From Bacteroidota bacterium (lineage in GTDB: Bacteria > Bacteroidota > Bacteroidia > B-17B0 > Aurantibacillaceae), in NCBI GenBank assembly GCA_021323535.1, contig JAJONO010000016.1, positions 1 through 64,000 of the forward strand: a DNA stretch of 64,000 bases. Direction: 5' to 3'. The notes beneath the pieces are model-generated. The model was not told where the DNA came from. It saw nothing but the letters and a program-made list of their open reading frames with translations, and did not search any database. Shown piece by piece: positions 17,551-29,315 of the stretch (position 1 is the first letter of the stretch; each line of letters begins with the position of its first letter). The position numbers were made by a program, and so were the translations under genes.

Positions 17551-18030
17551 CTATTCTTTCACCAGGGAAGAATAGATGCCAAGTCCGCAGCCTTCCACTC
17601 CATCGAGGAAAGAAAATGAGAGACAATAATTCCCGGTGGTCTTACATTCAAATTCAATTTCTTCGTAGAATCTTTTTAAGTTGGTGCTGTAAGTCGAACC
17701 AATTAAGAATTCCTGTTTTTCATTGTTGAAAATAGATACAATAGGAACGCCATCGTATTCTTCATTTCTGATCGCGTAAAATTTATAACGTATCCCACGG
17801 TTTAGCGTTACAATTTGTTTACTGTACTCAACCGGATCGTTTTTCTTCTTTTTACGGAGATAGAACGGATAATCCTGTATAAGCGTAAACTGTTTTAGTT
17901 TTGGATAAGCCTGCTGCAGCATTTTTTCTTTATTGCATTTTTCCTTTTTTAAATTGAATGAGCTTAGCAATAAAAGCGATCCTGAAACAGCGAGGATGCC
18001 CAGCATGTATTTCGGGAAGTTGGATTTCAT
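17551..18030 (-). CDS. small secreted protein, paralogue of the 12236-12679 product
   Basis: A 159-residue protein with an N-terminal hydrophobic segment (YMLGILAVSGSLLLLSSF) and a Lys-rich start to the mature part (NLKKEKCNKEKMLQ). It shares with the 12236-12679 product a CNxxxxL start, NRGIRYKF, a VSIFNNEKQEFL strand, FECKTTGNYCLSF and GCGLGI near the end. The conserved Cys pair FxC...GCG suggests a disulfide. No known family was recognised. Its ATG overlaps the TAA of the lipoprotein gene by one base (TAATG), so translation is probably coupled. A terminator follows. It lies outside the T9SS operon but only about 0.8 kb from its end. Confidence 0.75.
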   Translation of the reverse strand: MKSNFPKYMLGILAVSGSLLLLSSFNLKKEKCNKEKMLQQAYPKLKQFTLIQDYPFYLRKKKKNDPVEYSKQIVTLNRGIRYKFYAIRNEEYDGVPIVSIFNNEKQEFLIGSTYSTNLKRFYEEIEFECKTTGNYCLSFSFLDGVEGCGLGIYSSLVKE

Positions 18031-18944
18031 TATTGTACGGTGTTATTGGTTAAGAATACTCTGTTTCTGAAAGAAGAAATTTCCTGGTCTATCTGAGACA
18101 AAACATCTTTCGAGATCATCACATTCGTTTCTGTATTATCCACTACAATCAGCTCTCCATTCACTTCCTGCATAGTGGGTTCTTTGTAAGTATAACTGAT
18201 CTTTACTTTTTCAAATGTCTTTTTCAATCCCTGTAATTCATTCTTCAGATTTTTGTAATAATCAATGCCTTCCAGTTTATCGAGAATAGCATACATGTTG
18301 TCAATGATCACTTTTTGTTCGCCGATGCGTTTAATGATATCTTCAGAAGGATCTTTCTTTGCAATGTTGTTGAACATGTGTAAACCTTCGATCCAGGAGC
18401 CTATCAGAATAAGTACACTGAGGTCGCCACGGTTCTGCGAACGTAAATGTTCATCGATCTCGTTAAAGTTTTCGGTGGAGATACGGATGAGTGAATCTAC
18501 ATTGTTCCTGTTTTTGGCAAGGTTATTCAGCAACGAGAAATCAAGAAGCTGACTAACTTTTAAATCTTTTGATATGGTGTTGATCCCTTCCAGATATGAA
18601 ATTACATATAAGGTTTTGTTGTTAAGATTCAGGTAACCTAAGTCTACACCATAACCACCGAGCGCGAGGGCCTGTGAGTATTTGTCGGCGAATTTGTCAG
18701 CGTTCTCTGAAGGGATAAGAAGGTCTTTGTTGAATTCGGTTTTTGATTGCGTGATCATATTCGCAGTTTCGATGGGCGAAGGCAGCGTACGCATCATTTC
18801 GTCAAGAATGTCTCTTGAAATAGAAACAGATTGCATGTTAACCGGAATAGAATCCAGAAGTTGTTTTTCCTGTGAACTCTGGTCGTTCTCTGAACAGCTT
18901 GTAAGTATGGCGATTGCGGATAGTACGAATAATGTTTTTTTCAT
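18030..18944 (-). CDS. lipoprotein with long helical domain, unknown function
   Basis: A 304-residue lipoprotein. The start at 18944 is chosen because it places a lipobox-type signal at the N-terminus (MKKTLFVLSAIAILTSCSEN); an upstream in-frame ATG at 19040 would bury it behind 32 unlikely residues. The mature protein is mostly helical and rich in Asp, Asn and Leu, with a long stretch (about residues 90-260) that could form a helical bundle. No catalytic motif was found. Its sequence resembles uncharacterised Bacteroidota lipoproteins, but I cannot name the family. It is co-transcribed and overlapping with the small secreted protein gene downstream. Confidence 0.8.
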   Translation of the reverse strand: MKKTLFVLSAIAILTSCSENDQSSQEKQLLDSIPVNMQSVSISRDILDEMMRTLPSPIETANMITQSKTEFNKDLLIPSENADKFADKYSQALALGGYGVDLGYLNLNNKTLYVISYLEGINTISKDLKVSQLLDFSLLNNLAKNRNNVDSLIRISTENFNEIDEHLRSQNRGDLSVLILIGSWIEGLHMFNNIAKKDPSEDIIKRIGEQKVIIDNMYAILDKLEGIDYYKNLKNELQGLKKTFEKVKISYTYKEPTMQEVNGELIVVDNTETNVMISKDVLSQIDQEISSFRNRVFLTNNTVQ

Positions 18945-19051
18945 ATTGCAAAGATGGGGTGTAGTGTATGTTTTTTTAATAATGATATTCTTTATTTGTT
19001 CTAAGGGTTTTATTTTAATTTGTTTTGTCATTTTAACCAAATCATTTTAGT

Positions 19052-19227
19052 CAATTAGCCACATAGGACACATAGGTTTTTTATTGCTAAACTGCCTAAA
19101 GGAGACAAAGGAAATACCCTTTGGGTATTTACAGAAAAGTGTTTCTAAATTAATTTGCCTTTGGCAAGTTCTTAGGCCTCCTTTCTGCACGCAAAGATAA
19201 AACCTATGTGTCCTGCGCGGTTAAATG
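19052..19227. repeat. long intergenic inverted repeat with nested hairpin
   Basis: AGGACACATAGGTTTT at 19065-19080 is repeated exactly and inverted at 19199-19214, and the arms extend imperfectly outward to 19052 and 19227. Inside is a hairpin AAATACCC-TTT-GGGTATTT at 19112-19130 and a further weak pairing (CTAAAGGAG against CTCCTTTC). The whole block fills the gap between two minus-strand genes and could fold into a branched RNA or act as a terminator. The outer right arm, ending GCGCGGTTAAATG, matches other intergenic copies in this window. Confidence 0.7.
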
Positions 19228-19244
19228 TCTACATCCAAACAAGA

Positions 19245-22238
19245 TTAATTAAACCGGTTCATTATTTTTTTAAGTACATCAAAATACAGGAACGCGAAAA
19301 GCGAAATATTAATCACCCAGATAACGATCAGGTTAAATGCAAAGGTGCTGATCTCTCTCCCGAATAAATATTTGGTAGCGCTCAGAAAATGTGTCCCCGC
19401 CCCGAAAATTTTATTTCCCGAAGGCTCCCTGTAAATCGGGTCAATGACCTGTTCAAGCCTGCCATCTTCTATAACGATCTTTTCTTTTTCGAGGCTCGCC
19501 GTGCAAACTTCATCAAGCTTGTCGTTCACGTATTTTTGCTTATACTCTTCATAGATTTTTTTATCGCCAAATTTTTTAATGGTCCTGGTGATCTGTTCCT
19601 GCTTCATGTCTGAAACAGTATTGAATTTAGCGTTGTAAAATCCATTGAGTTTTCCGAGATAGCTCAGAACGCCGCTGGTGTCTTTGCACAGGGGCAATTG
19701 CGCCTTGAACCCGATCTTTGAAACTTCCTTATAATCTTTTTCAATTTCGTTTTTCACCAGTGATAATTCTTCGGCTTTGTTTTTATTTACGAGCTCCTGG
19801 AGCTTGGGGATGAAATAAACGAGCTTGTAGTTGAGTTTGCTTTCCATTTTGTTCAGCCTGAAAGTTTCCCTGGCCATTTTGTTGTTTACCTGCATATCCA
19901 CCACAATGCCTTCGTAGGCCCATCGCGATATCATGAAGTTGGCCGCCGCCGGTACTTTATTTCCTCCGCCAAAATAACGGTTCAGTTTATTGAAGTTGAA
20001 CATGGCGCCACCTAATAACATCTGGGGAATAATAATGAGTGGGATGATAATGTAAATAGTAACCGGACTATTAAAGCTCGCCGAAAGGATCAATCCTAAA
20101 ATGTTGGCGAAACAGAACACTGATAATAACATGATAAAGAAGTTGAAATAGTTGAATTCAATCTTTAAAATAAAATGACCAATGAGCACATACAACAACG
20201 ATTGTATTAACGAAATACTAAACAGCAGAGTTACTTTGGATAAGAGATAGGACAACCTGCTTAAATGCAGGAACCTTTCTCTTTTTAATATTTTCTGATC
20301 CTTGAAAATTTCTTCGGCACTTAATGTCAATCCCACCAGCAATGCCGCGATAAGAGACATGAATACATAAGCCGGCAAGTTGTAATTGTGGAAATAAGTA
20401 AATGTTTCTGATTTTGTTGTGTCTGTGTAGCGGATGATAAAACTCAGGAACATCACCAATACCGGCACTTCCAGTAAATTAATAAGAACATACTGTTTGT
20501 TGGATAATTTGGCGAGGACATCTCTGAGAAAAAAGTATTTTGTCTGTACCAGTTTCCCCGGTAATTTAAACGTACTCTGAAGTTTTGCCTGGATACCTTT
20601 AAAATTAAAGGCCATTAAAAAATGGTCCTTGTAGTATTGGTAAAATTGTATGGATGAAATTTTTCTTTTGTCAGTGTAGGTTCCGTACTCATTGATCTCT
20701 TTCAGATCAAGTAAATTGAAGATCGTTTCGGGGTTCACGCTGCCACAGGCGTAACATTCGCCCACTTCGCAGTTGATCTGGTTCGTGACTTTCTTAAAAT
20801 ACATCACGGACTCAATTGGATTTCCGTAGTACGTAGCGTATCCTCCTGTATCGAGGATAAGCATCTTATCAAACATTTTAAAAATGTCGGACGATGGCTG
20901 GTGAATAACAACAAAGATCAATTTCCCTTTGATGGTTAATTCTTTCAGGAGATCCATCACATTTTCCGAGTCCCTCGATGATAAACCTGATGTTGGCTCG
21001 TCAAGAAATAAAATCTGTGGCTCACGGATCAATTCGAGAGCAATGTTCAGTCGTTTACGCTGACCACCACTTATCTTTTTATTAAGTGCGTTACCAACTT
21101 TAATGGAACGTATCTCGTCGAGCCCCAGCGACAATAATGTTTTATTGATCCTGTAATGAACCTCTTCATCACTCAAATCCTTAAAACATAATTTCGCGTT
21201 GTAATATAAATTCTGAAAAACAGTAAGATCCTCAATAAGAAGGTCGTCCTGCGGAACAAAACCTATAAAACCTTTTAAAGCGTCGTCTTTATCACCAAGC
21301 TCACTGTTATTGATCTTAATACTTCCTTTTGTAGGTTTCTCTTGTCCCGATAAAAGCGTGAGTAAAGTTGTTTTGCCCGAACCGCTGGCGCCCATAATCC
21401 CCACAAGATTACCCGACATTTCGGCGATCTTTAATTCGTGCAGGGCCTGTTTTCCATTGGGGAAAGTATGATTTTCGATATGGGCCTCAAAACTGAAACT
21501 TTCATCATTATCGCTGCCAATGAATTTTGAAATGATGTTAGAATAATAAATGGTTGTTTGTGGCAACCTTAAATTACTTCCCTGCGGAAATATATATATG
21601 GTTTCGGGCTTGATAACAATCCCGTTAAGGTGTAATTCAACATGACCATGATATTTCATCACAACAATGTTGATGCTTCTGATAAATATAAATTTACAGA
21701 GCCCGTGGTAGTGACTAAAAGGCAGAAACTGCCGGCAGGTTAATTTTCCCGTTAACGATTCGTCGCCAATAACAATTTCACCGGCACTGGTTTCATTTTC
21801 AGTTTCAAAAATGAAGGATTTTATTTCATTGAATTCTGTTTTCTCAATATTAAACACATCCGCAACCGCTTCAACGATCTGTGTACGGTTCAATGATTTG
21901 TGCTGGTCCTTTTTGAAGAATTCTATGAGACGGATGAGTACAATTATTTTTTGTTTCTGGGCGAGCGTCTTGTTTATCTTTTTGCAGATGGCAAGCGTGC
22001 GCACCGAATCCTTCATCGACGTTCTCGATTTTTCGGCGGTATTTCCGTTGCTTACTTCGGTTTTTACACCGTCAAGAAATTCGTTATAAAGTTTAAGATA
22101 TTCGCTTACCCTCTCAACACTAAGTTGCGAGGAGAGAAAGTCCCGTACGAATTTTTCATGGTCAGTAATTAAAACGCCGTCTTGTTTTGCAATGATGGCG
22201 AACAATTGCATCAGGGCCTTCAGTATTTCCTCACTCAT
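19245..22238 (-). CDS. ABCG-type ABC transporter (ATPase-permease fusion) with TerB-like N-terminal region
   Basis: A 997-residue half transporter. Residues 1-150 are helical and TerB-like (LFAIIAKQDGVLITDHEKFV). Residues 155-245 are beta-rich. The nucleotide-binding domain has Walker A GASGSGKT (283-290), signature SGGQRKR (390-396), Walker B ILFLDEPT and the switch His in VVIHQPSS. About five membrane segments lie between 585 and 775, a large soluble loop (about 780-955, with several Lys-rich helices and two Cys) follows, and a last segment is near 970. This order matches ABCG/ABC2 exporters; the substrate is unknown. Its start overlaps the stop of the SiaC-like gene by 4 nt (ATGA), tying it to the SiaABC-like switch. 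Control of the transporter by that switch is inference. Confidence 0.88.
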   Translation of the reverse strand: MSEEILKALMQLFAIIAKQDGVLITDHEKFVRDFLSSQLSVERVSEYLKLYNEFLDGVKTEVSNGNTAEKSRTSMKDSVRTLAICKKINKTLAQKQKIIVLIRLIEFFKKDQHKSLNRTQIVEAVADVFNIEKTEFNEIKSFIFETENETSAGEIVIGDESLTGKLTCRQFLPFSHYHGLCKFIFIRSINIVVMKYHGHVELHLNGIVIKPETIYIFPQGSNLRLPQTTIYYSNIISKFIGSDNDESFSFEAHIENHTFPNGKQALHELKIAEMSGNLVGIMGASGSGKTTLLTLLSGQEKPTKGSIKINNSELGDKDDALKGFIGFVPQDDLLIEDLTVFQNLYYNAKLCFKDLSDEEVHYRINKTLLSLGLDEIRSIKVGNALNKKISGGQRKRLNIALELIREPQILFLDEPTSGLSSRDSENVMDLLKELTIKGKLIFVVIHQPSSDIFKMFDKMLILDTGGYATYYGNPIESVMYFKKVTNQINCEVGECYACGSVNPETIFNLLDLKEINEYGTYTDKRKISSIQFYQYYKDHFLMAFNFKGIQAKLQSTFKLPGKLVQTKYFFLRDVLAKLSNKQYVLINLLEVPVLVMFLSFIIRYTDTTKSETFTYFHNYNLPAYVFMSLIAALLVGLTLSAEEIFKDQKILKRERFLHLSRLSYLLSKVTLLFSISLIQSLLYVLIGHFILKIEFNYFNFFIMLLSVFCFANILGLILSASFNSPVTIYIIIPLIIIPQMLLGGAMFNFNKLNRYFGGGNKVPAAANFMISRWAYEGIVVDMQVNNKMARETFRLNKMESKLNYKLVYFIPKLQELVNKNKAEELSLVKNEIEKDYKEVSKIGFKAQLPLCKDTSGVLSYLGKLNGFYNAKFNTVSDMKQEQITRTIKKFGDKKIYEEYKQKYVNDKLDEVCTASLEKEKIVIEDGRLEQVIDPIYREPSGNKIFGAGTHFLSATKYLFGREISTFAFNLIVIWVINISLFAFLYFDVLKKIMNRFN

Positions 22239-22684
22239 TTGGCACTCACAGCTTCTTCGTTAGTAAAGCAGAATTCAACGCCACCTTTGTTCAGATTTTT
22301 CATCAGTTCACCGAATTCGTACATATCAGAATCTTCGCTGTCGCAGAACCAGTGAATTTTTGTTTTAATTCCTTTCTGACGAAGCAAACGCGCCTCCCTG
22401 TTTAATTGTATCAGGAATTTTGAAGTATACGTATTAAAATAATCAAGAATGATGTAAACGTCTAATGTTTTTTTTCCATGCTTTTTATAATCGGCAAACC
22501 AGTCGAGTACCGGGCCAAAAAAGTTGGAAGGGGCAAGAGGCGATGAGCTTCCTGAAATTACCACTTTACCCTTTTTATGATCAAGTACAATTTTGGGAGT
22601 GGAGTTGGTTGCATCCAGTTCAAAAAGAGCTGCTGAATTAAAGTTCGCTGGTTCTTCGACCAATTGTCTTGAAATACTTGTCAT
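22235..22684 (-). CDS. SiaC-family (DUF1987) regulatory phosphoprotein, long form
   Basis: A 149-residue cytoplasmic protein of the SiaC/DUF1987 family. It shows STPKIVLDHKKGKVVISGSS, the FFGPVLDWFADYKKH helix, and the LDYFNTYTSK strand-turn in which Thr85 aligns with the Thr that SiaB phosphorylates in Pseudomonas aeruginosa SiaC (Thr68). It has a 25-residue N-terminal extension that the neighbouring SiaC copy lacks. In the known system, unphosphorylated SiaC activates the diguanylate cyclase SiaD. No GGDEF gene is seen in this window, so the target here must differ or lie elsewhere. The stop overlaps the start of the ABC transporter gene by 4 nt, making that protein a candidate partner. Confidence 0.85.
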   Translation of the reverse strand: MTSISRQLVEEPANFNSAALFELDATNSTPKIVLDHKKGKVVISGSSSPLAPSNFFGPVLDWFADYKKHGKKTLDVYIILDYFNTYTSKFLIQLNREARLLRQKGIKTKIHWFCDSEDSDMYEFGELMKNLNKGGVEFCFTNEEAVSAK

Positions 22685-22688
22685 GATA

Positions 22689-23066
22689 TTAAGCGGCTAA
22701 GATGTTAAACGGAATTTCTACAAGTTCCTTGTATTCTTCACCTGCTTCTACCATGTCATCATCGCCATCGGTGTAATACCATTCAATACTGAAGGAGTTT
22801 TTTCCTTCAGCTTGAATTTCTTCAAGTTTTAAAAGAATGTCGAGAATGATTTTTGAAGAGGCTGTATTAAAATATTCGAGTTTGAAAACAAACTTAAGGC
22901 TATTGCCATGAGTCGAGGTAAGTTGCTCTAACCATTCGAAAACCGGCTTATAAAAATTGCTTACATCTTCTGGTAACGATCTCCCTGAAATAACGAATTC
23001 GTTTCCTTCCGGACTATAAACGATATCCGGTGTGTCTTCTGTTCCTGTGATTTTGAGTGTTGTCAT
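22689..23066 (-). CDS. SiaC-family (DUF1987) regulatory phosphoprotein
   Basis: A 125-residue SiaC-type protein of canonical length. The motif order is TPDIVYSPEGNEFVISGRS, FYKPVFEWLEQL, then LEYFNTASSK. Thr68 in FNTAS falls at the same position number as the phosphorylated Thr68 of P. aeruginosa SiaC. The C-terminus has the usual acidic WYYTDGDDDMVEAGE segment. It is 4 nt upstream of the second SiaC gene and follows the SiaB gene by 59 nt. It is probably the substrate of the adjacent SiaB-type kinase and the PP2C phosphatase, acting as a partner-switch protein in the cytoplasm. Confidence 0.9.
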   Translation of the reverse strand: MTTLKITGTEDTPDIVYSPEGNEFVISGRSLPEDVSNFYKPVFEWLEQLTSTHGNSLKFVFKLEYFNTASSKIILDILLKLEEIQAEGKNSFSIEWYYTDGDDDMVEAGEEYKELVEIPFNILAA

Positions 23067-23125
23067 TGTTTTATGTTGTTATAATAATTTTTGATGTAAT
23101 GCCATGAAGTGAACTTTGTTCTACT

Positions 23126-23662
23126 TCATTGGCTTATCTGGCTGTTAAGAATAAATAAAGAATGGTTCGCATCCATTTCAAAGAACTGGTAATCGAGTTT
23201 GTTGCCCGATTTCCTGGCCATATCAATGAACCCAAGTCCTGCGCCGCCAACTTCACTGATCACACTTTTTAAACGCGCCTGCTTGTAATATTCTTTCAGT
23301 TCTTCTTTGTTAAGTGAATTCACCTTATCTATTTTTTCCCGCACGATCATGATCTTATCGTGGTGTATATAATTTCCTGTTACCACACTAAAAGAATCTC
23401 TGTCTTTTCCTATCATTAAAAAAGGATGGTTTTCAGGATTCAATACCATCTGATGTTTTGCCACGTTCTGAAGGCCCTCTATCATGACATTGAAGAGTTT
23501 TTTCTTCAGGGCTTCTTCCACTTTTTCCTGCTCCAGTTTTTTTTCTGTCATGATAAGCACCGATTTTATCATTTCCTGGTCAAACATTCCATGATAGATC
23601 AAAATCACATTATGTTTGATCATGGTCGAAAATAATTCGTAGATGTTAATTGTAGATTCCAT
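23126..23662 (-). CDS. SiaB-family protein kinase (GHKL-like fold)
   Basis: A 178-residue SiaB-type Ser/Thr kinase. The ATP-site motifs are complete: an N-box-like helix NVMIEGLQNVAKH with Glu62 and Asn66, and a glycine-rich lid VGGAGLGFIDMAR (138-150). There is no signal peptide or membrane segment. In the characterised Sia system, SiaB phosphorylates SiaC and is opposed by the PP2C phosphatase SiaA; this gene has the same neighbours. Its start lies 17 nt inside the end of the preceding SiaB-like gene, so the two kinases are translationally coupled. This is the copy expected to be active. Confidence 0.88.
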   Translation of the reverse strand: MESTINIYELFSTMIKHNVILIYHGMFDQEMIKSVLIMTEKKLEQEKVEEALKKKLFNVMIEGLQNVAKHQMVLNPENHPFLMIGKDRDSFSVVTGNYIHHDKIMIVREKIDKVNSLNKEELKEYYKQARLKSVISEVGGAGLGFIDMARKSGNKLDYQFFEMDANHSLFILNSQISQ

Positions 23663-24206
23663 CAGTTAATTTTAGATTTGAAATGGTTGATTTAAATGAA
23701 AGAAAGTAGTTTTGCTCGTCTACCTTAATGCTTTCATACTGAATTTTTTCCCTGTTACGCTTCGAGATACCAAGTAAGCTGATAAGGAAAGGGTTTATCT
23801 GCGCGATCTCGTGGTTCGTTAATTCTTTATAGAAGTTAGCTTTGATCTCGTCGCTTTCAATAGCGTTTACCTGCTCAATAATTTCAATGATGTTATCTTT
23901 CTCTGAACTTTTAATAATGCTTCCGATATGAACCATGTAATCCTCATTTTTTTTTCCAATCAGGAAAATACTGTTGTTCTGGTGTTCCTGGTGCTTATCT
24001 ATCTTGGAGAGATTTTGCGCGCATTCGATCATAAAATGAAAGATTCTTTTTTTCATGGTCTGATCCACTTCCATTTTTGATAATTTCTTGTCTGTAATTT
24101 TTAAGAGCGAGAGCAGCAAGTGCTGGTCAATGTTTCCCATGATCGATACCACAAACTGGTGCGATACCATTGTGTCATATATTTTTTTTGTAAGTTCTGT
24201 GTTCAT
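23646..24206 (-). CDS. SiaB-like protein with degenerate glycine lid (probable pseudokinase)
   Basis: A 186-residue paralogue of the downstream SiaB. The first half matches well (FHFMIECAQNLSK keeps Glu61 and Asn65 of the N-box), but the position of the glycine-rich lid reads INPFLISLLGISKR in place of GGAGLGFIDMAR, so the nucleotide-binding glycines are lost. The rest of the fold (IQYESIKVDEQNYFLSFKS) is preserved and the frame is intact, so it looks selected and not decayed. It may bind the active SiaB or the SiaC proteins without phosphorylating them (inference). Its ATG is 1 nt after the stop of the PP2C gene. Confidence 0.8.
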   Translation of the reverse strand: MNTELTKKIYDTMVSHQFVVSIMGNIDQHLLLSLLKITDKKLSKMEVDQTMKKRIFHFMIECAQNLSKIDKHQEHQNNSIFLIGKKNEDYMVHIGSIIKSSEKDNIIEIIEQVNAIESDEIKANFYKELTNHEIAQINPFLISLLGISKRNREKIQYESIKVDEQNYFLSFKSTISNLKLTDGIYN

Positions 24207-24207
24207 T

Positions 24208-25188
24208 TTAAAATTTTATTCCTATTGTTAAAATATCATCTACCTGTTTATTGTTCCCTTTCCATTCACTTAAATATTCCACGAGATTATTTTTTAACTC
24301 TGAGAATTTTTTTTCTGAACGTTCTTCAAAAAATGTTTTTACGTTTTTGCTCATCAGTTTTTTCTTTTCAGGTCCGCCTGTCTGGTCGGGTAATCCGTCG
24401 GTGAAAAGAAAGACAGAGTCACCTTCTTTAAAATCGATCACCTGATCGGTGAAAGAATTTTTTCCTTTGTAATGCATGCCTCCGATCGGAAATTTATTTC
24501 CGCTGTAAACGGTGATTTCACCGCTGCGCTGAAAAAATAAGGGACGATGAGCACCGCTGAAAAAGAGTTGTTTGTTTTTATTATCAATGCAGCACATGGC
24601 CAAGTCCATACCATCGTTTGAGTTGCTGGCAGAAGAATCCTGCTTCAATGTTTCCACAACCGATTCATGTAATTTTCTTAAGATCATGGAAGGCATCAAT
24701 ACCTGATTGCAGCTGGCCACGTCTTTGAGTAAAAGACTGCCAATCATCGACATCATGGCTCCGGGTACACCGTGGCCGGTACAATCCACCGCCGCTACAT
24801 ATGTGTAATTACCAAGGGTAAACAGCCATGGAAAATCGCCGCTGATAACGTCTTTTGGCTGATACAGAATAAAGCTTTCGGCATATTGTTTCCTGAGGTC
24901 GTTTTCTGTTGGGTTTATGGCCTGCTGGATCTTTTTTGAGTAGTTAATACTTTCAGTGATCCTCTGATTTTGGTTCTCTACAATTTTTTTAGTCTGGTTA
25001 AGCTCTTCAATGGTTTCGGCCAGTTTCTTTTTCATGTCCCGCTCGCGCCAGGTAGCTGAAATGAGGTGATTATTCGTGGCTTCAATTTCCTGAAAATACA
25101 TTTTCAACCCTTCAATTTCCTGCTTCAGGAGGTCATTTTCGGCCTTTGTCTTAAGATAAGATTCTTGAGTTATTTCTGTGGTCTGCAT
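24208..25188 (-). CDS. PP2C/SpoIIE-family phosphatase (SiaA/RsbU-like) with N-terminal coiled coil
   Basis: About 326 residues from the preferred ATG at 25188 (an in-frame ATG at 25230 would add MAPQLPYFAFVKRN). The N-terminal 90 residues are a coiled coil (ENDLLKQEIEGLKMYF, KKKLAETIEELNQTKK) ending in the SINYSKKIQQAINP helix typical of SpoIIE-type phosphatases. The catalytic domain has metal-site motifs AVDCTGHGVPGAMMS, FTDGLPDQTGG and QVDDILTIGIKF. The first motif reads GDFPW where most members have GDFYW. SiaA of P. aeruginosa has a membrane sensor in front, but this one is soluble. It should dephosphorylate one or both SiaC proteins and heads the operon, divergent from the hybrid kinase gene at 25372. 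Confidence 0.9.
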   Translation of the reverse strand: MQTTEITQESYLKTKAENDLLKQEIEGLKMYFQEIEATNNHLISATWRERDMKKKLAETIEELNQTKKIVENQNQRITESINYSKKIQQAINPTENDLRKQYAESFILYQPKDVISGDFPWLFTLGNYTYVAAVDCTGHGVPGAMMSMIGSLLLKDVASCNQVLMPSMILRKLHESVVETLKQDSSASNSNDGMDLAMCCIDNKNKQLFFSGAHRPLFFQRSGEITVYSGNKFPIGGMHYKGKNSFTDQVIDFKEGDSVFLFTDGLPDQTGGPEKKKLMSKNVKTFFEERSEKKFSELKNNLVEYLSEWKGNNKQVDDILTIGIKF

Positions 25189-25371
25189 GTTCCGTTTTAC
25201 AAAGGCAAAGTAAGGCAGCTGAGGGGCCATTTTTCCTAAGAATTATCTTTAAAAAAAGTAAGGTTTTTATTTAGGTTGAAATAGGGATTTAACTGAATCT
25301 CAACGGATGGGGTTTTGGGTAATTTCGCACTTTGATTGACACCCATTTTAGTGAAGAAAGGAAGATTGGAC

Positions 25372-27720
25372 ATGCCTAAGACAAAGAGCCTGGAGAAATT
25401 GATACACAAACAGAATCTGCTGATTGACATTACGTCGAAATATTTCGACCTGAGTTCGGCGGAAATTTCGTTACAGGAAATCTGTAATGATTTTAAACTT
25501 ATTTCGGAAGCAAAATATACGTTACTTAACCGCTTCAACGACAAAACGCGCTTGAACCAAACGGCCGTTGTATCTGTTGTAGGTAATCAATTAGATGAGA
25601 TCATCAAAGTCATGGGTTTTAATCCCATAGGGAAAGAATGGAAGATCACTCAGCCAACACTTAAACTTCTTCAGTCCCGCAAACTCATTAACCTTCGCGA
25701 TGTAATCGAACTGAAATCTTACTTTTTAACGGCGCAACAAAGAAAAACCGTTACCAGTATTCTTGAACTTGGCGAACTTTATTCTGTTGGTATTTTCAGC
25801 AAGCGAAAAATTCTTGGTAGTATGATCCTTATACTGGACAAGGACCAGGAATTAGGATATAGCAATATTATCGAAAATTTTGCTAAGCAGGTAGGCGGAT
25901 TGATATCCCGCATTGAAAGCGAAACAGAACTTGAACAGGAAAAACAGAAACTGAAAATCATTTCAGAATATTCGCCGGATCTTTTATTTATTGTAGACCG
26001 GGAAAGAATGATCCGGTATATTAACAGAGCGAGGTGGAACAACAAAGAAGATGTAGTGGGTTCGAGCGTGTTTAATTACGTACCTGAAAATTATAAAGAA
26101 AAATTTGATAGTTGGATCCGTAAAACATTTGAGCATGGTAAAACGCATTACGGCGAAATGATTGCGATGGGCATTAACAGCCCCGAAACAATTTACGCCA
26201 TCAAATTTATTCCATACATGAAATATAACCAGGTGGAATACGTATACGTGGTTTCTGCCGATGTTACAGAAAATAAACGCCTTTTGCAGGAGCTTAAAAA
26301 AGCTAACCAGGCAAAGACTGAATTTCTGGCCAATATGAGTCACGAGATCCGTACGCCGCTTAACGCCATCCTGGGTTTCTCCGAACTTTTAAAAGGAAAC
26401 ACAAAAGAGATCAAATACGAAAAGTACATTGATGGAATTCTTACCGGTGGAAAAAATCTGCTATCGCTCATCAACGATATTCTTGATCTTTCTAAAATTG
26501 AAGCCGGCCATGTTGATCTTAAAAATGTGCCTGTAAATGTTCATTCGTTAGCGAATGAGTTTAAACAACTATTTATGCAGAAAGCGGAAGAGAAATGTTT
26601 GCGTTATTACATAAATGTTTCTGCCGGTATTCCAAAAACGGTTCTGATAGATGAAACGCGCGTAAAGCAGATTTTATTCAATCTCGTGGGCAATGCCTTC
26701 AAATTTACCGATCGCGGAGAAGTTTGTCTCACCATCAGTTACGAAAGATCAATGATCCACGATAGTAAAGTTAACCTGGTATTTGAAGTAAAGGATACAG
26801 GCATTGGTATTCCTATAGAACAGCAGAGCATTATTTTTGAAGCCTTTAAGCAACAGGACGGACAGAGCACGCGCAAATACGGTGGAACAGGCCTTGGTCT
26901 TGCTATTACTCGCCGTCTTGTAAACATGATGGGATCAATTAAAGTAGAGAGCCGGCCGGAAAAAGGAAGCACATTTACCGTGATTATCGGTGATGTTGAA
27001 ATTTCGGCGGTGGATGAAGAAGAAGAACTGATGAAAGAGGAAAGAGAGTTTGAATTTAAAAGACAAACTATTCTGCTGGTGGAAGACATTGAATCGAACC
27101 GCGATGTAGTGAAAGGTTTTCTTGAACTTAGCAATCTGAATGTGATTGTTTCTGAAAACGGAAAAGAAGCCATTGAACAACTTGAAAAATTAAAGCCGGA
27201 CCTGATCCTCATGGACATGATGATGCCGGTAATGGATGGGTATACTACCACAAAAGTAATACGTAAACAAAAACGATATGATAAGGTACCGATCGTTGCG
27301 CTTACGGCCTCGGCGCTAAAGCACAGCGAAGACGATATAAGAGGATTATGCAACGATTATCTGCGAAAGCCAATAAGCCGGATAGAACTCGCGAAAGTAC
27401 TTGCGAAGTATCTCGAACATTCTGTCAGCTCTAACTTTGTTTGGGATAGTAATCTGGAAGATACTACCGGAAGCATAAAACTGTGCGACAAGGTAAAAGT
27501 TGAATTGAGAGATAAATTCTATGACTACTGGACCGAGGTATCTCATCTTATGAGTATCGACGATATCCAGGATTTTTCGAACCAATTGCTCGAGTATGCG
27601 CAGGTTCTGGACTCCCCGGCCCTGGAAGATTATGTAAAAACACTTATTTCTTACACCGAAAATTTTGAAATTGAAAAGATGAATGCCACTTTTTTAAGAT
27701 TCAAAAAACTGATCACCTGA
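25372..27720 (+). CDS. soluble hybrid histidine kinase (GAF-like, PAS, HisKA, HATPase, REC)
   Basis: 782 residues from the ATG at 25372; a TTG at 25336 is in frame but less likely. A GAF-like region (about 8-185) is followed by a PAS domain (195-300: IISEYSPDLLFIVDRERMIRYINRA). The H-box FLANMSHEIRTPLNAI carries His324. The ATPase motifs NLVGNAFKFTD, DTGIGI and GGTGLGLA are intact. A receiver has Asp615 in LMDMMMPVMDG. The last 100 residues form a helical tail common in Bacteroidota hybrid kinases, without a clear Hpt His. There are no membrane segments, so it reads an intracellular signal. It is followed 5 nt later by a REC-PAS-PP2C gene and lies divergent to the Sia-like operon with a 183-nt shared upstream region. 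Confidence 0.93.
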   Translation: MPKTKSLEKLIHKQNLLIDITSKYFDLSSAEISLQEICNDFKLISEAKYTLLNRFNDKTRLNQTAVVSVVGNQLDEIIKVMGFNPIGKEWKITQPTLKLLQSRKLINLRDVIELKSYFLTAQQRKTVTSILELGELYSVGIFSKRKILGSMILILDKDQELGYSNIIENFAKQVGGLISRIESETELEQEKQKLKIISEYSPDLLFIVDRERMIRYINRARWNNKEDVVGSSVFNYVPENYKEKFDSWIRKTFEHGKTHYGEMIAMGINSPETIYAIKFIPYMKYNQVEYVYVVSADVTENKRLLQELKKANQAKTEFLANMSHEIRTPLNAILGFSELLKGNTKEIKYEKYIDGILTGGKNLLSLINDILDLSKIEAGHVDLKNVPVNVHSLANEFKQLFMQKAEEKCLRYYINVSAGIPKTVLIDETRVKQILFNLVGNAFKFTDRGEVCLTISYERSMIHDSKVNLVFEVKDTGIGIPIEQQSIIFEAFKQQDGQSTRKYGGTGLGLAITRRLVNMMGSIKVESRPEKGSTFTVIIGDVEISAVDEEEELMKEEREFEFKRQTILLVEDIESNRDVVKGFLELSNLNVIVSENGKEAIEQLEKLKPDLILMDMMMPVMDGYTTTKVIRKQKRYDKVPIVALTASALKHSEDDIRGLCNDYLRKPISRIELAKVLAKYLEHSVSSNFVWDSNLEDTTGSIKLCDKVKVELRDKFYDYWTEVSHLMSIDDIQDFSNQLLEYAQVLDSPALEDYVKTLISYTENFEIEKMNATFLRFKKLIT

Positions 27721-27725
27721 TAGTA

Positions 27726-29315
27726 ATGATAGAAAAACTTAAAATTAAACCCACTGTTCCAAGAACTACTGAAACCGAAGTAAATCTTCTCAGGAAAGGA
27801 AAGATATTGATCATTGATGACTCGATGGATAACATCAGGGCCATTGCCAAGATCCTGAAAGAAGAAGAGTATGATATTCTCACAGCGCATGATCCCATGA
27901 AAGGTATTTCCATTGCCGAATCAAAGCTTCCCGATATGATCCTGCTGGATGTGATCATGCCGGGAATTAACGGTTACAAGGTATGCGAAACGCTCAAAAA
28001 CAATAAACACACAAAGGATATTCCCATTTTATTTTTAACATCGCTCAACGACAGCGATAGCACTTTAAAAGGTTTCCAGATGGGCGCAGTGGATTATATC
28101 AACAAACCATTTAACCGCCTCGAACTTCTTGCCAGGATAAAAAATCATCTTAATATTAAATTATCGCAGGAGCATGGTCGCGCCCTGTTCGAAAGCATTC
28201 ATCATACCTACATCACATTAAACAAGGACCTTCGTATTGTAAACTACAACACCATTGCCAATATCCGCGAAGAACTTTTCGGGAAGCGTAAATTTATCAT
28301 TGGCGACAATATTTTTAATTACATTGGCCAGGAAGATCATAGCCTGTTCAAAAGAAAAATTGAGGGAGTGTTTGCCGGGAAAGTTTCGGGTTTCGAAAAA
28401 CAGTATCTTCACAACGAAACCAGCAGTTGGTTCAATTATGTGTTCGAACCCATTATCAGCAAGCAAGGGGAGGTAATAGGATGCCTTATTAACGGCACGG
28501 ATATTACCGAGAAAAAAGGATTTGAGTTAAGGGTGCAGGAATATACACGTGAAATAAAACAGATGTATCTCGAGTCCAAGGAAAGCCTTGAATATGCCAG
28601 TTATGTGCAAAACGCCCTCTTTCCAACACGAAAAGAATTCACTTCTAATTTTGAAGAACATTTTCTAATTTGCAAGCCAAAAGATATTGTTAATGGCGAC
28701 TTTTACTGGATATACCCTTCGGGAAGCAAATTGTTCTTCGTTCTCGGGGATTGCACCGGACATGGTGTAGCCGGTGCCTTACTTACTACTATTAGCATTG
28801 TGTTGCTGGAAAGAATTATTAAGCACAATAAAATAACTTTGCCTGATGAAATTCTGCACGAAATGGATCTGGGATTAAAAGACACACTGCGTCAGAAAGA
28901 AGGAGAAATGGAGAGTGGACTTGAAATAGCGGTATGCGTATTCGATAAAAAGAAACGGATACTTGAATTCGCGGGCGCTAAACGTTCTCTGTTTATGACT
29001 GTAGGTAATGAACTGATAGAAATAAAAGGGAACCGGTTTGACCTTGGCGGCTCAGGTAAAAAAATATTTAAAAAACAGCATGTCGATTATGATAAACACA
29101 CTTCATTCTATATGTTTTCTGATGGCATCACCGACCAGATCGGGGGCGAAAAACGAAAACGTTTTATGACGAAGAATTTATTCAGGCTCATTGATTCGAA
29201 TAAACACAGAACGATGACCGAGCAGAAAAAGGCGTATGAACATGCAATTAAAGAATGGATGAGAGATGAAGTGCAGACAGATGACCTCACTCTGATAGGA
29301 TTGAAAGTAATGTAA
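27726..29315 (+). CDS. response regulator with REC, PAS and PP2C phosphatase output
   Basis: A 529-residue soluble protein. The receiver (25-140) has ILIIDDS, phosphoacceptor Asp75 in LLDVIMPG, and the conserved Lys in NKPFNRLE. A PAS domain follows (about 155-265). The SLEYASYVQNALFP helix leads into a complete PP2C/SpoIIE domain with GDFYW, GDCTGHGVAGALL, FSDGITDQIGG and QTDDLTLIG. Phosphorylation of the receiver, probably by the hybrid kinase 5 nt upstream, would set the phosphatase activity, as in RsbU/RssB-type proteins. Possible substrates in this window are the two SiaC-type proteins and the STAS protein at 34755; which one is used cannot be told from sequence. Confidence 0.92.
   Translation: MIEKLKIKPTVPRTTETEVNLLRKGKILIIDDSMDNIRAIAKILKEEEYDILTAHDPMKGISIAESKLPDMILLDVIMPGINGYKVCETLKNNKHTKDIPILFLTSLNDSDSTLKGFQMGAVDYINKPFNRLELLARIKNHLNIKLSQEHGRALFESIHHTYITLNKDLRIVNYNTIANIREELFGKRKFIIGDNIFNYIGQEDHSLFKRKIEGVFAGKVSGFEKQYLHNETSSWFNYVFEPIISKQGEVIGCLINGTDITEKKGFELRVQEYTREIKQMYLESKESLEYASYVQNALFPTRKEFTSNFEEHFLICKPKDIVNGDFYWIYPSGSKLFFVLGDCTGHGVAGALLTTISIVLLERIIKHNKITLPDEILHEMDLGLKDTLRQKEGEMESGLEIAVCVFDKKKRILEFAGAKRSLFMTVGNELIEIKGNRFDLGGSGKKIFKKQHVDYDKHTSFYMFSDGITDQIGGEKRKRFMTKNLFRLIDSNKHRTMTEQKKAYEHAIKEWMRDEVQTDDLTLIGLKVM

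Follow-up and report, generated by a model that had tools for sequence, protein, structure and literature searches.

The SiaABC proteins have been described from Pseudomonas, where SiaB phosphorylates SiaC, SiaA dephosphorylates it and unphosphorylated SiaC binds the output protein (PMC7647112, PMC8457831). The STAS-type partner switches HsbA-HsbD and BgrV-BgrR resemble the switch proposed here in that a phospho-switched adaptor acts on a neighbouring output protein, but they work on diguanylate cyclases, and their adaptors belong to the STAS family and not to SiaC/DUF1987 (discussed in PMC8457831). It has furthermore been pointed out that DUF1987 is widespread and that the proteins adjacent to it are likely targets (PMC8457831). 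In the open-access literature we found no SiaC target besides a diguanylate cyclase and no link between SiaB or SiaC and a transporter, and DUF1987 appeared there only in the Pseudomonas paper. In Rv1747-PknF of Mycobacterium tuberculosis, the closest analogue of the locus described here, an ABCG-subfamily half-transporter with FHA domains at its front shares an operon with its modulator, a threonine kinase (PMC3908365). There, however, a Hanks-type kinase phosphorylates the transporter itself, a SiaC adaptor and a TerB domain are both missing, and compared with Rv1747 the FHA residues of the present protein look degenerate.

Organisation of the locus and comparison with SiaABCD

The locus lies in what we call the window, i.e. 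the whole stretch of 64,000 nucleotides analysed, and comprises the following features.

24208..25188, minus strand: SiaA-like PP2C (SpoIIE-type) phosphatase, 326 aa (SpoIIE E=4e-18, NCBIfam SiaA E=5e-46)
23646..24206, minus strand: SiaB', predicted pseudokinase (DUF6272 E=4e-20, motif scan)
23126..23662, minus strand: SiaB, predicted GHKL-type protein kinase (DUF6272/SiaB E=2e-37, SiaB_fam_kinase 140.5 bits)
22689..23066, minus strand: SiaC1, phospho-target (PF09345 E=5e-38, alignment to 6kko/7e6g)
22235..22684, minus strand: SiaC2, second SiaC (PF09345 E=4e-25)
19245..22238, minus strand: TerB-FHA-ABCG half-transporter, 997 aa (ABC_tran and ABC2_membrane in Pfam/NCBIfam, structure comparison)
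21807..22238, minus strand: transporter residues 1-144, a helical TerB-like domain (PF05099 in homologues, VIA fold match)
21510..21788, minus strand: transporter residues 151-243, a beta-sandwich domain of FHA-like fold (fold comparison, conservation)
18030..18944, minus strand: lipoprotein of 304 aa with an LTSC lipobox, a conserved partner (matched by a family HMM from which the window was excluded)
17551..18030, minus strand: small secreted protein of 159 aa, also conserved (matched by a family HMM from which the window was likewise excluded)
25336..27720, plus strand: divergent hybrid histidine kinase, possible input (beside SiaA also in the relatives G001 and G030)

The six minus-strand genes for the SiaA-like protein, SiaB', SiaB, SiaC1, SiaC2 and the ABC transporter follow each other in this order and are as tightly packed between 19245 and 25188 as the initial annotation had it, since a single nucleotide separates the SiaA-like gene from SiaB', SiaB' and SiaB overlap by 17 nt, gaps of 59 and 4 nt precede SiaC1 and SiaC2, respectively, and SiaC2 shares a 4-nt ATGA with the transporter gene. 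The families named there are likewise borne out by Pfam and NCBIfam (SpoIIE/SiaA, DUF6272/SiaB twice, SiaC twice, and ABC_tran with ABC2_membrane), and the proposed six-gene operon stands as regards its genes but not its end point, the operon reaching further downstream, to 17551. With SiaABCD of Pseudomonas aeruginosa the locus has in common a phosphatase with PP2C motifs, a SiaB-family kinase and a SiaC with the same phospho-threonine (equivalent to Thr68), encoded in one operon with the output gene directly after, but the output here would be an ABCG-type transporter with a lipoprotein and a secreted partner rather than the GGDEF diguanylate cyclase SiaD, and there are in addition a degenerate second SiaB, a second SiaC and a SiaA that is devoid of a sensor domain. 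A scan for the Bacteroidota -7 motif gave 69 occurrences against 73 expected. A long imperfect palindrome lies in the gap between the transporter and lipoprotein genes (19040-19245; single-strand DNA fold z=-5.1). Three partial relatives occur elsewhere in the genome (74-76% identity), and the palindrome has the look of a small hairpin repeat.

The SiaA of the window consists of a coiled coil and a PP2C domain, in which the metal-binding motifs GDF, DCTGHG and TDG were found by motif scan and DDI by direct reading. It scores 157 bits against the NCBIfam SiaA equivalog, below a cut-off of 700 bits that is set for the full-length protein. SiaA of other species carries sensor domains such as dCache, HAMP, GAF and PAS, and here the divergent hybrid histidine kinase, which G001 and G030 have at the corresponding position, is a candidate input to the switch. 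Two further observations concern possible inputs and phosphatases. In many Bacteroidota a CheB, CheR and GAF/PAS cluster is found 5' of the SiaA-SiaB-SiaC-transporter operon (families in 53-58 loci; e.g. L071:264-6327), which suggests that methylation-type adaptation is coupled to the SiaABC switch. The divergent cluster of the window furthermore encodes a response regulator-PAS-PP2C protein (27726-29315) with a SiaA-like phosphatase part (NCBIfam SiaA E=2e-48), possibly a second phosphatase for SiaC.

Two SiaB-family genes are indeed present, but the notion of a doubled kinase has to give way to that of a kinase with a degenerate copy, since SiaB' is without the ATP-binding glycine motif. By motif scan SiaB has both an N-box (EGLQNVAKH) and a G-box (GGAGLG), and its score against NCBIfam SiaB_fam_kinase is above the cut-off of 85 bits; SiaB' reaches 70.5 bits against the SiaB-subfamily profile, under the cut-off of 85, and the scan found no GHKL ATP-binding G-box in it, INPFLISL standing where GGAGLG is expected. 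Since the G-box is lost, SiaB' is, as far as its sequence tells, probably a pseudokinase subunit. Of 114 SiaB sequences, 103 have a G-box-like motif and three of the others have a GGASLG variant; the motif is also missing from SiaB' of G001 and G030 and from the upstream SiaB of the loci L039, L048 and L058. On another contig of the same genome (C49; L134:9829-10995) two SiaB domains are fused in one protein of 388 aa, whose gene has SiaC and convergent SiaA-like genes after it, and no TerB-FHA transporter was found on that contig.

That no GGDEF protein is encoded here, as first noted for the locus, holds for the whole genome (5.3 Mb, 97.5% complete) and for 59 relatives, and a hidden GGDEF protein is thus rejected. 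Since GGDEF occurs in none of these 60 related genomes (own included) while SiaC occurs in 50, the SiaABC module works here without a GGDEF-type diguanylate cyclase, and a diguanylate-cyclase output is absent.

Transporter architecture and the SiaC proteins

From AlphaFold2 models and structure comparison, the transporter is predicted to be an exporter built of a TerB-like domain (residues 1-144), an FHA-like domain (151-243) and an ABCG body (245-992). The TerB family PF05099 is matched by 56 of 59 transporter homologues (best E=2e-11), the window protein alone giving 19.6 bits, below the cut-off of 24.4, and residues 1-144 compare with 2h5n and 2ou3 at VIA Z of 8.1 and 7.3. For residues 151-243 the best Foldseek match has E=0.017 (prob 1.00) and VIA gives Z of 6.3-7.8 with FHA domains in most rows, among them FHA-2 of Rv1747 (Z 6.5); no Pfam FHA match is listed. 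The remaining part aligns with ABCG2, ABCG25 and ABCG5/8 over about 520-550 residues (Z about 31, rmsd 3.2-4.2) and has the NBD-then-TMD order and the fold of an ABCG (type V) half-transporter.

Thr68 of P. aeruginosa SiaC aligns with Thr68 of SiaC1 (FNTASS) and Thr85 of SiaC2 (FNTYTS), and the phospho-acceptor threonine is conserved in 110 of 116 SiaC sequences. The claim of a doubled SiaC stands in so far as both genes are present and both encode the threonine, but SiaC2 is probably the shortened remnant of a module-SiaC protein. G026 and G027 have, between SiaC and the transporter, a gene for a protein of 374-377 aa, in which a SiaC domain comes after a homologue of the N-terminal 250 residues of the transporter. 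Searched with ORFs from the collected loci as background, a profile built solely from transporter N-termini recovers both fusions (E=6e-24 and 3e-14) and also stand-alone proteins of G030 (E=6e-7) and G001 (E=9e-5). In the latter two genomes, the nearest relatives, the SiaC2 orthologue occupies the same place in the operon and has about 230 extra N-terminal residues, but these halves match the TerB-FHA module weakly (E 0.006 and 0.9) and are too diverged to call, so that the fusion claim rests on G026 and G027 together with the stand-alone proteins of G030 and G001. The window SiaC2, 58% identical to the SiaC domain found in a 360-aa protein of G001, is the orthologue of the SiaC half of the relatives' longer proteins and has probably lost the N-terminal part. 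Two extra divergent SiaC-like genes with Ser instead of the phospho-Thr are found 5' of a B-B-C-transporter operon at L125:13245-14152.

Conservation of the SiaABC-transporter operon

The adjacency scan took a single genome from each species, its query being the N-terminal module of the transporter without any SiaC part, and yielded loci nearly all from Bacteroidota, many of them in metagenome bins. Among the 71 loci with at least 2 kb upstream, taken from the best-scoring 80 of at least 529, 65 have a co-oriented SiaC no more than 2 kb before the transporter, 64 have SiaB, 62 SiaA and 61 all three. Between SiaC and the transporter the median gap measures 61 nt, and in many orders SiaC is the transporter's immediate neighbour. 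The initial annotation had drawn its link to the transporter from gene order at one locus and had proposed to abandon it should relatives lack SiaB-SiaC-ABCG adjacency; the link thus holds across Bacteroidota. Chance adjacency is rejected, since about five SiaC genes per genome of about 4 Mb would by a rough estimate place one there in well under 1% of loci.

In a tree of 122 transporters, 77 of the 91 members of the window clade are found in SiaABC-transporter operons, and those of a paralogous clade are mostly unlinked or accompanied by convergent SiaABC; the genome studied here has one transporter of each clade, the second copy being L117. The locus L047 carries the label Actinomycetota but groups with Flavobacteriia bins in this tree, and is for that reason probably a wrongly binned contig. 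Comparison at class level gives 13 cases with both transporter and SiaC, 8 with neither and 2 discordant ones (Fisher p=1.6e-4 without phylogenetic correction), and among single genomes G058 has the transporter and no SiaC, and G059 SiaC and no full-length transporter. The own genome gives 4 SiaC and 6 SiaB matches, and because related genomes carry up to 15 SiaC genes, crosstalk among the copies is possible.

Directly 3' of the ABC gene the lipoprotein family is found in 72 loci and the small secreted family in 69, and the window proteins score 320 and 104 bits, respectively, against the family HMMs; no Pfam family was found among their homologues. Both families also accompany the paralogous transporters, with a different gene order (on contig C113 of the own genome their genes precede the paralogous transporter gene), and for this reason transporter, lipoprotein and secreted protein look like a core machine and SiaABC like its regulator.

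A putative partner switch acting on an exporter

We regard it as probable that the locus is an operon for an envelope exporter, controlled by a partner switch of the SiaABC type that works through threonine phosphorylation, with the TerB-FHA module as the output of SiaC. SiaB would phosphorylate the conserved threonine of SiaC (Thr68 in SiaC1), the PP2C protein SiaA would take the phosphate off, and the output would be the TerB-FHA N-terminal module of the ABCG half-transporter encoded directly downstream, replacing the diguanylate cyclase. The phosphorylation state of SiaC would then decide whether the module is engaged and hence the activity of the exporter, which would work with the lipoprotein and the small secreted partner. 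The gene identities, the conserved operon, the conserved phosphosite, the lack of GGDEF proteins and the module common to the transporter and the SiaC fusions were observed directly; physical binding between SiaC and the module and a cargo for the exporter are inferred, and by analogy with Pseudomonas unphosphorylated SiaC would be the binder. The link between SiaC and the transporter is supported independently of adjacency by the fusion of SiaC to the transporter's N-terminal module in the same operon. It speaks against the proposal that SiaC is not needed for every transporter, since the paralogous clade, L117 included, has the lipoprotein and secreted protein usually without adjacent SiaABC, and that neighbouring genes can be co-regulated without physical contact; the discordant genomes G058 and G059 and the possible crosstalk among SiaC copies count against it as well. 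With slightly less than even confidence we further suggest that SiaABC gating of an ABCG exporter is widespread in Bacteroidota, that SiaC docks on or co-assembles through the TerB-FHA module present on both, and that in many species input arrives via a sensor-bearing SiaA and the CheR/CheB-like cluster.

Partner switches classically act on sigma factors, several SiaC genes per genome are located away from any transporter, and no transporter was found beside the own-genome SiaB/SiaC clusters on contigs C23 and C49. It may thus be that the operon is merely co-regulated, SiaC acting on another cytosolic target (e.g. a sigma/anti-sigma factor or a histidine kinase) and the transporter being a co-transcribed output, but we find this unlikely in view of the fusions, within this very operon, of SiaC domains with the N-terminal module known from the transporter and of a SiaC that directly adjoins the transporter across many orders. 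The presence of the same module on the transporter and on the TerB-FHA-SiaC fusion would also agree with a pure oligomerisation platform, by which fusion and transporter co-assemble and SiaC recruits phosphatase or kinase to the transporter; this seems rather improbable, since most operons have a free SiaC and no fusion, and the window SiaC2 is without the module.

The FHA fold is in general a phosphothreonine reader and SiaC is threonine-phosphorylated, so with an FHA-like fold in the modelled transporter the domain might read phospho-Thr68 directly, making phosphorylated SiaC the active binder, the reverse of Pseudomonas. G198, N205, G206 and G220 are strongly conserved in the FHA part, but the canonical phosphothreonine-binding Arg, Ser and Asn do not appear among the alignment positions that 80% or more of 121 sequences conserve (with the Mek1 FHA domain the sequence aligns weakly), and Thr68 is situated at the start of a helix in a folded domain rather than in a flexible tail, which makes such direct reading improbable indeed. 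Since the canonical phosphate-binding residues are not conserved, the FHA-like domain may instead be a docking fold. TerB and FHA-like domains may have a general role as docking sites on exporters.

Under the proposed switch on the exporter, SiaC and the TerB-FHA module form a concrete and testable binding pair, and the transporter is a second candidate SiaC target, conserved in many lineages and different in kind, in bacteria without GGDEF proteins. If this is true, the SiaABC module moves from control of a second messenger to direct control of membrane transport. Since the switch, studied only in Pseudomonas biofilm control, here shares its operon with an export pump and two cell-envelope proteins, it probably controls a pump in these bacteria instead of a signal-making enzyme.
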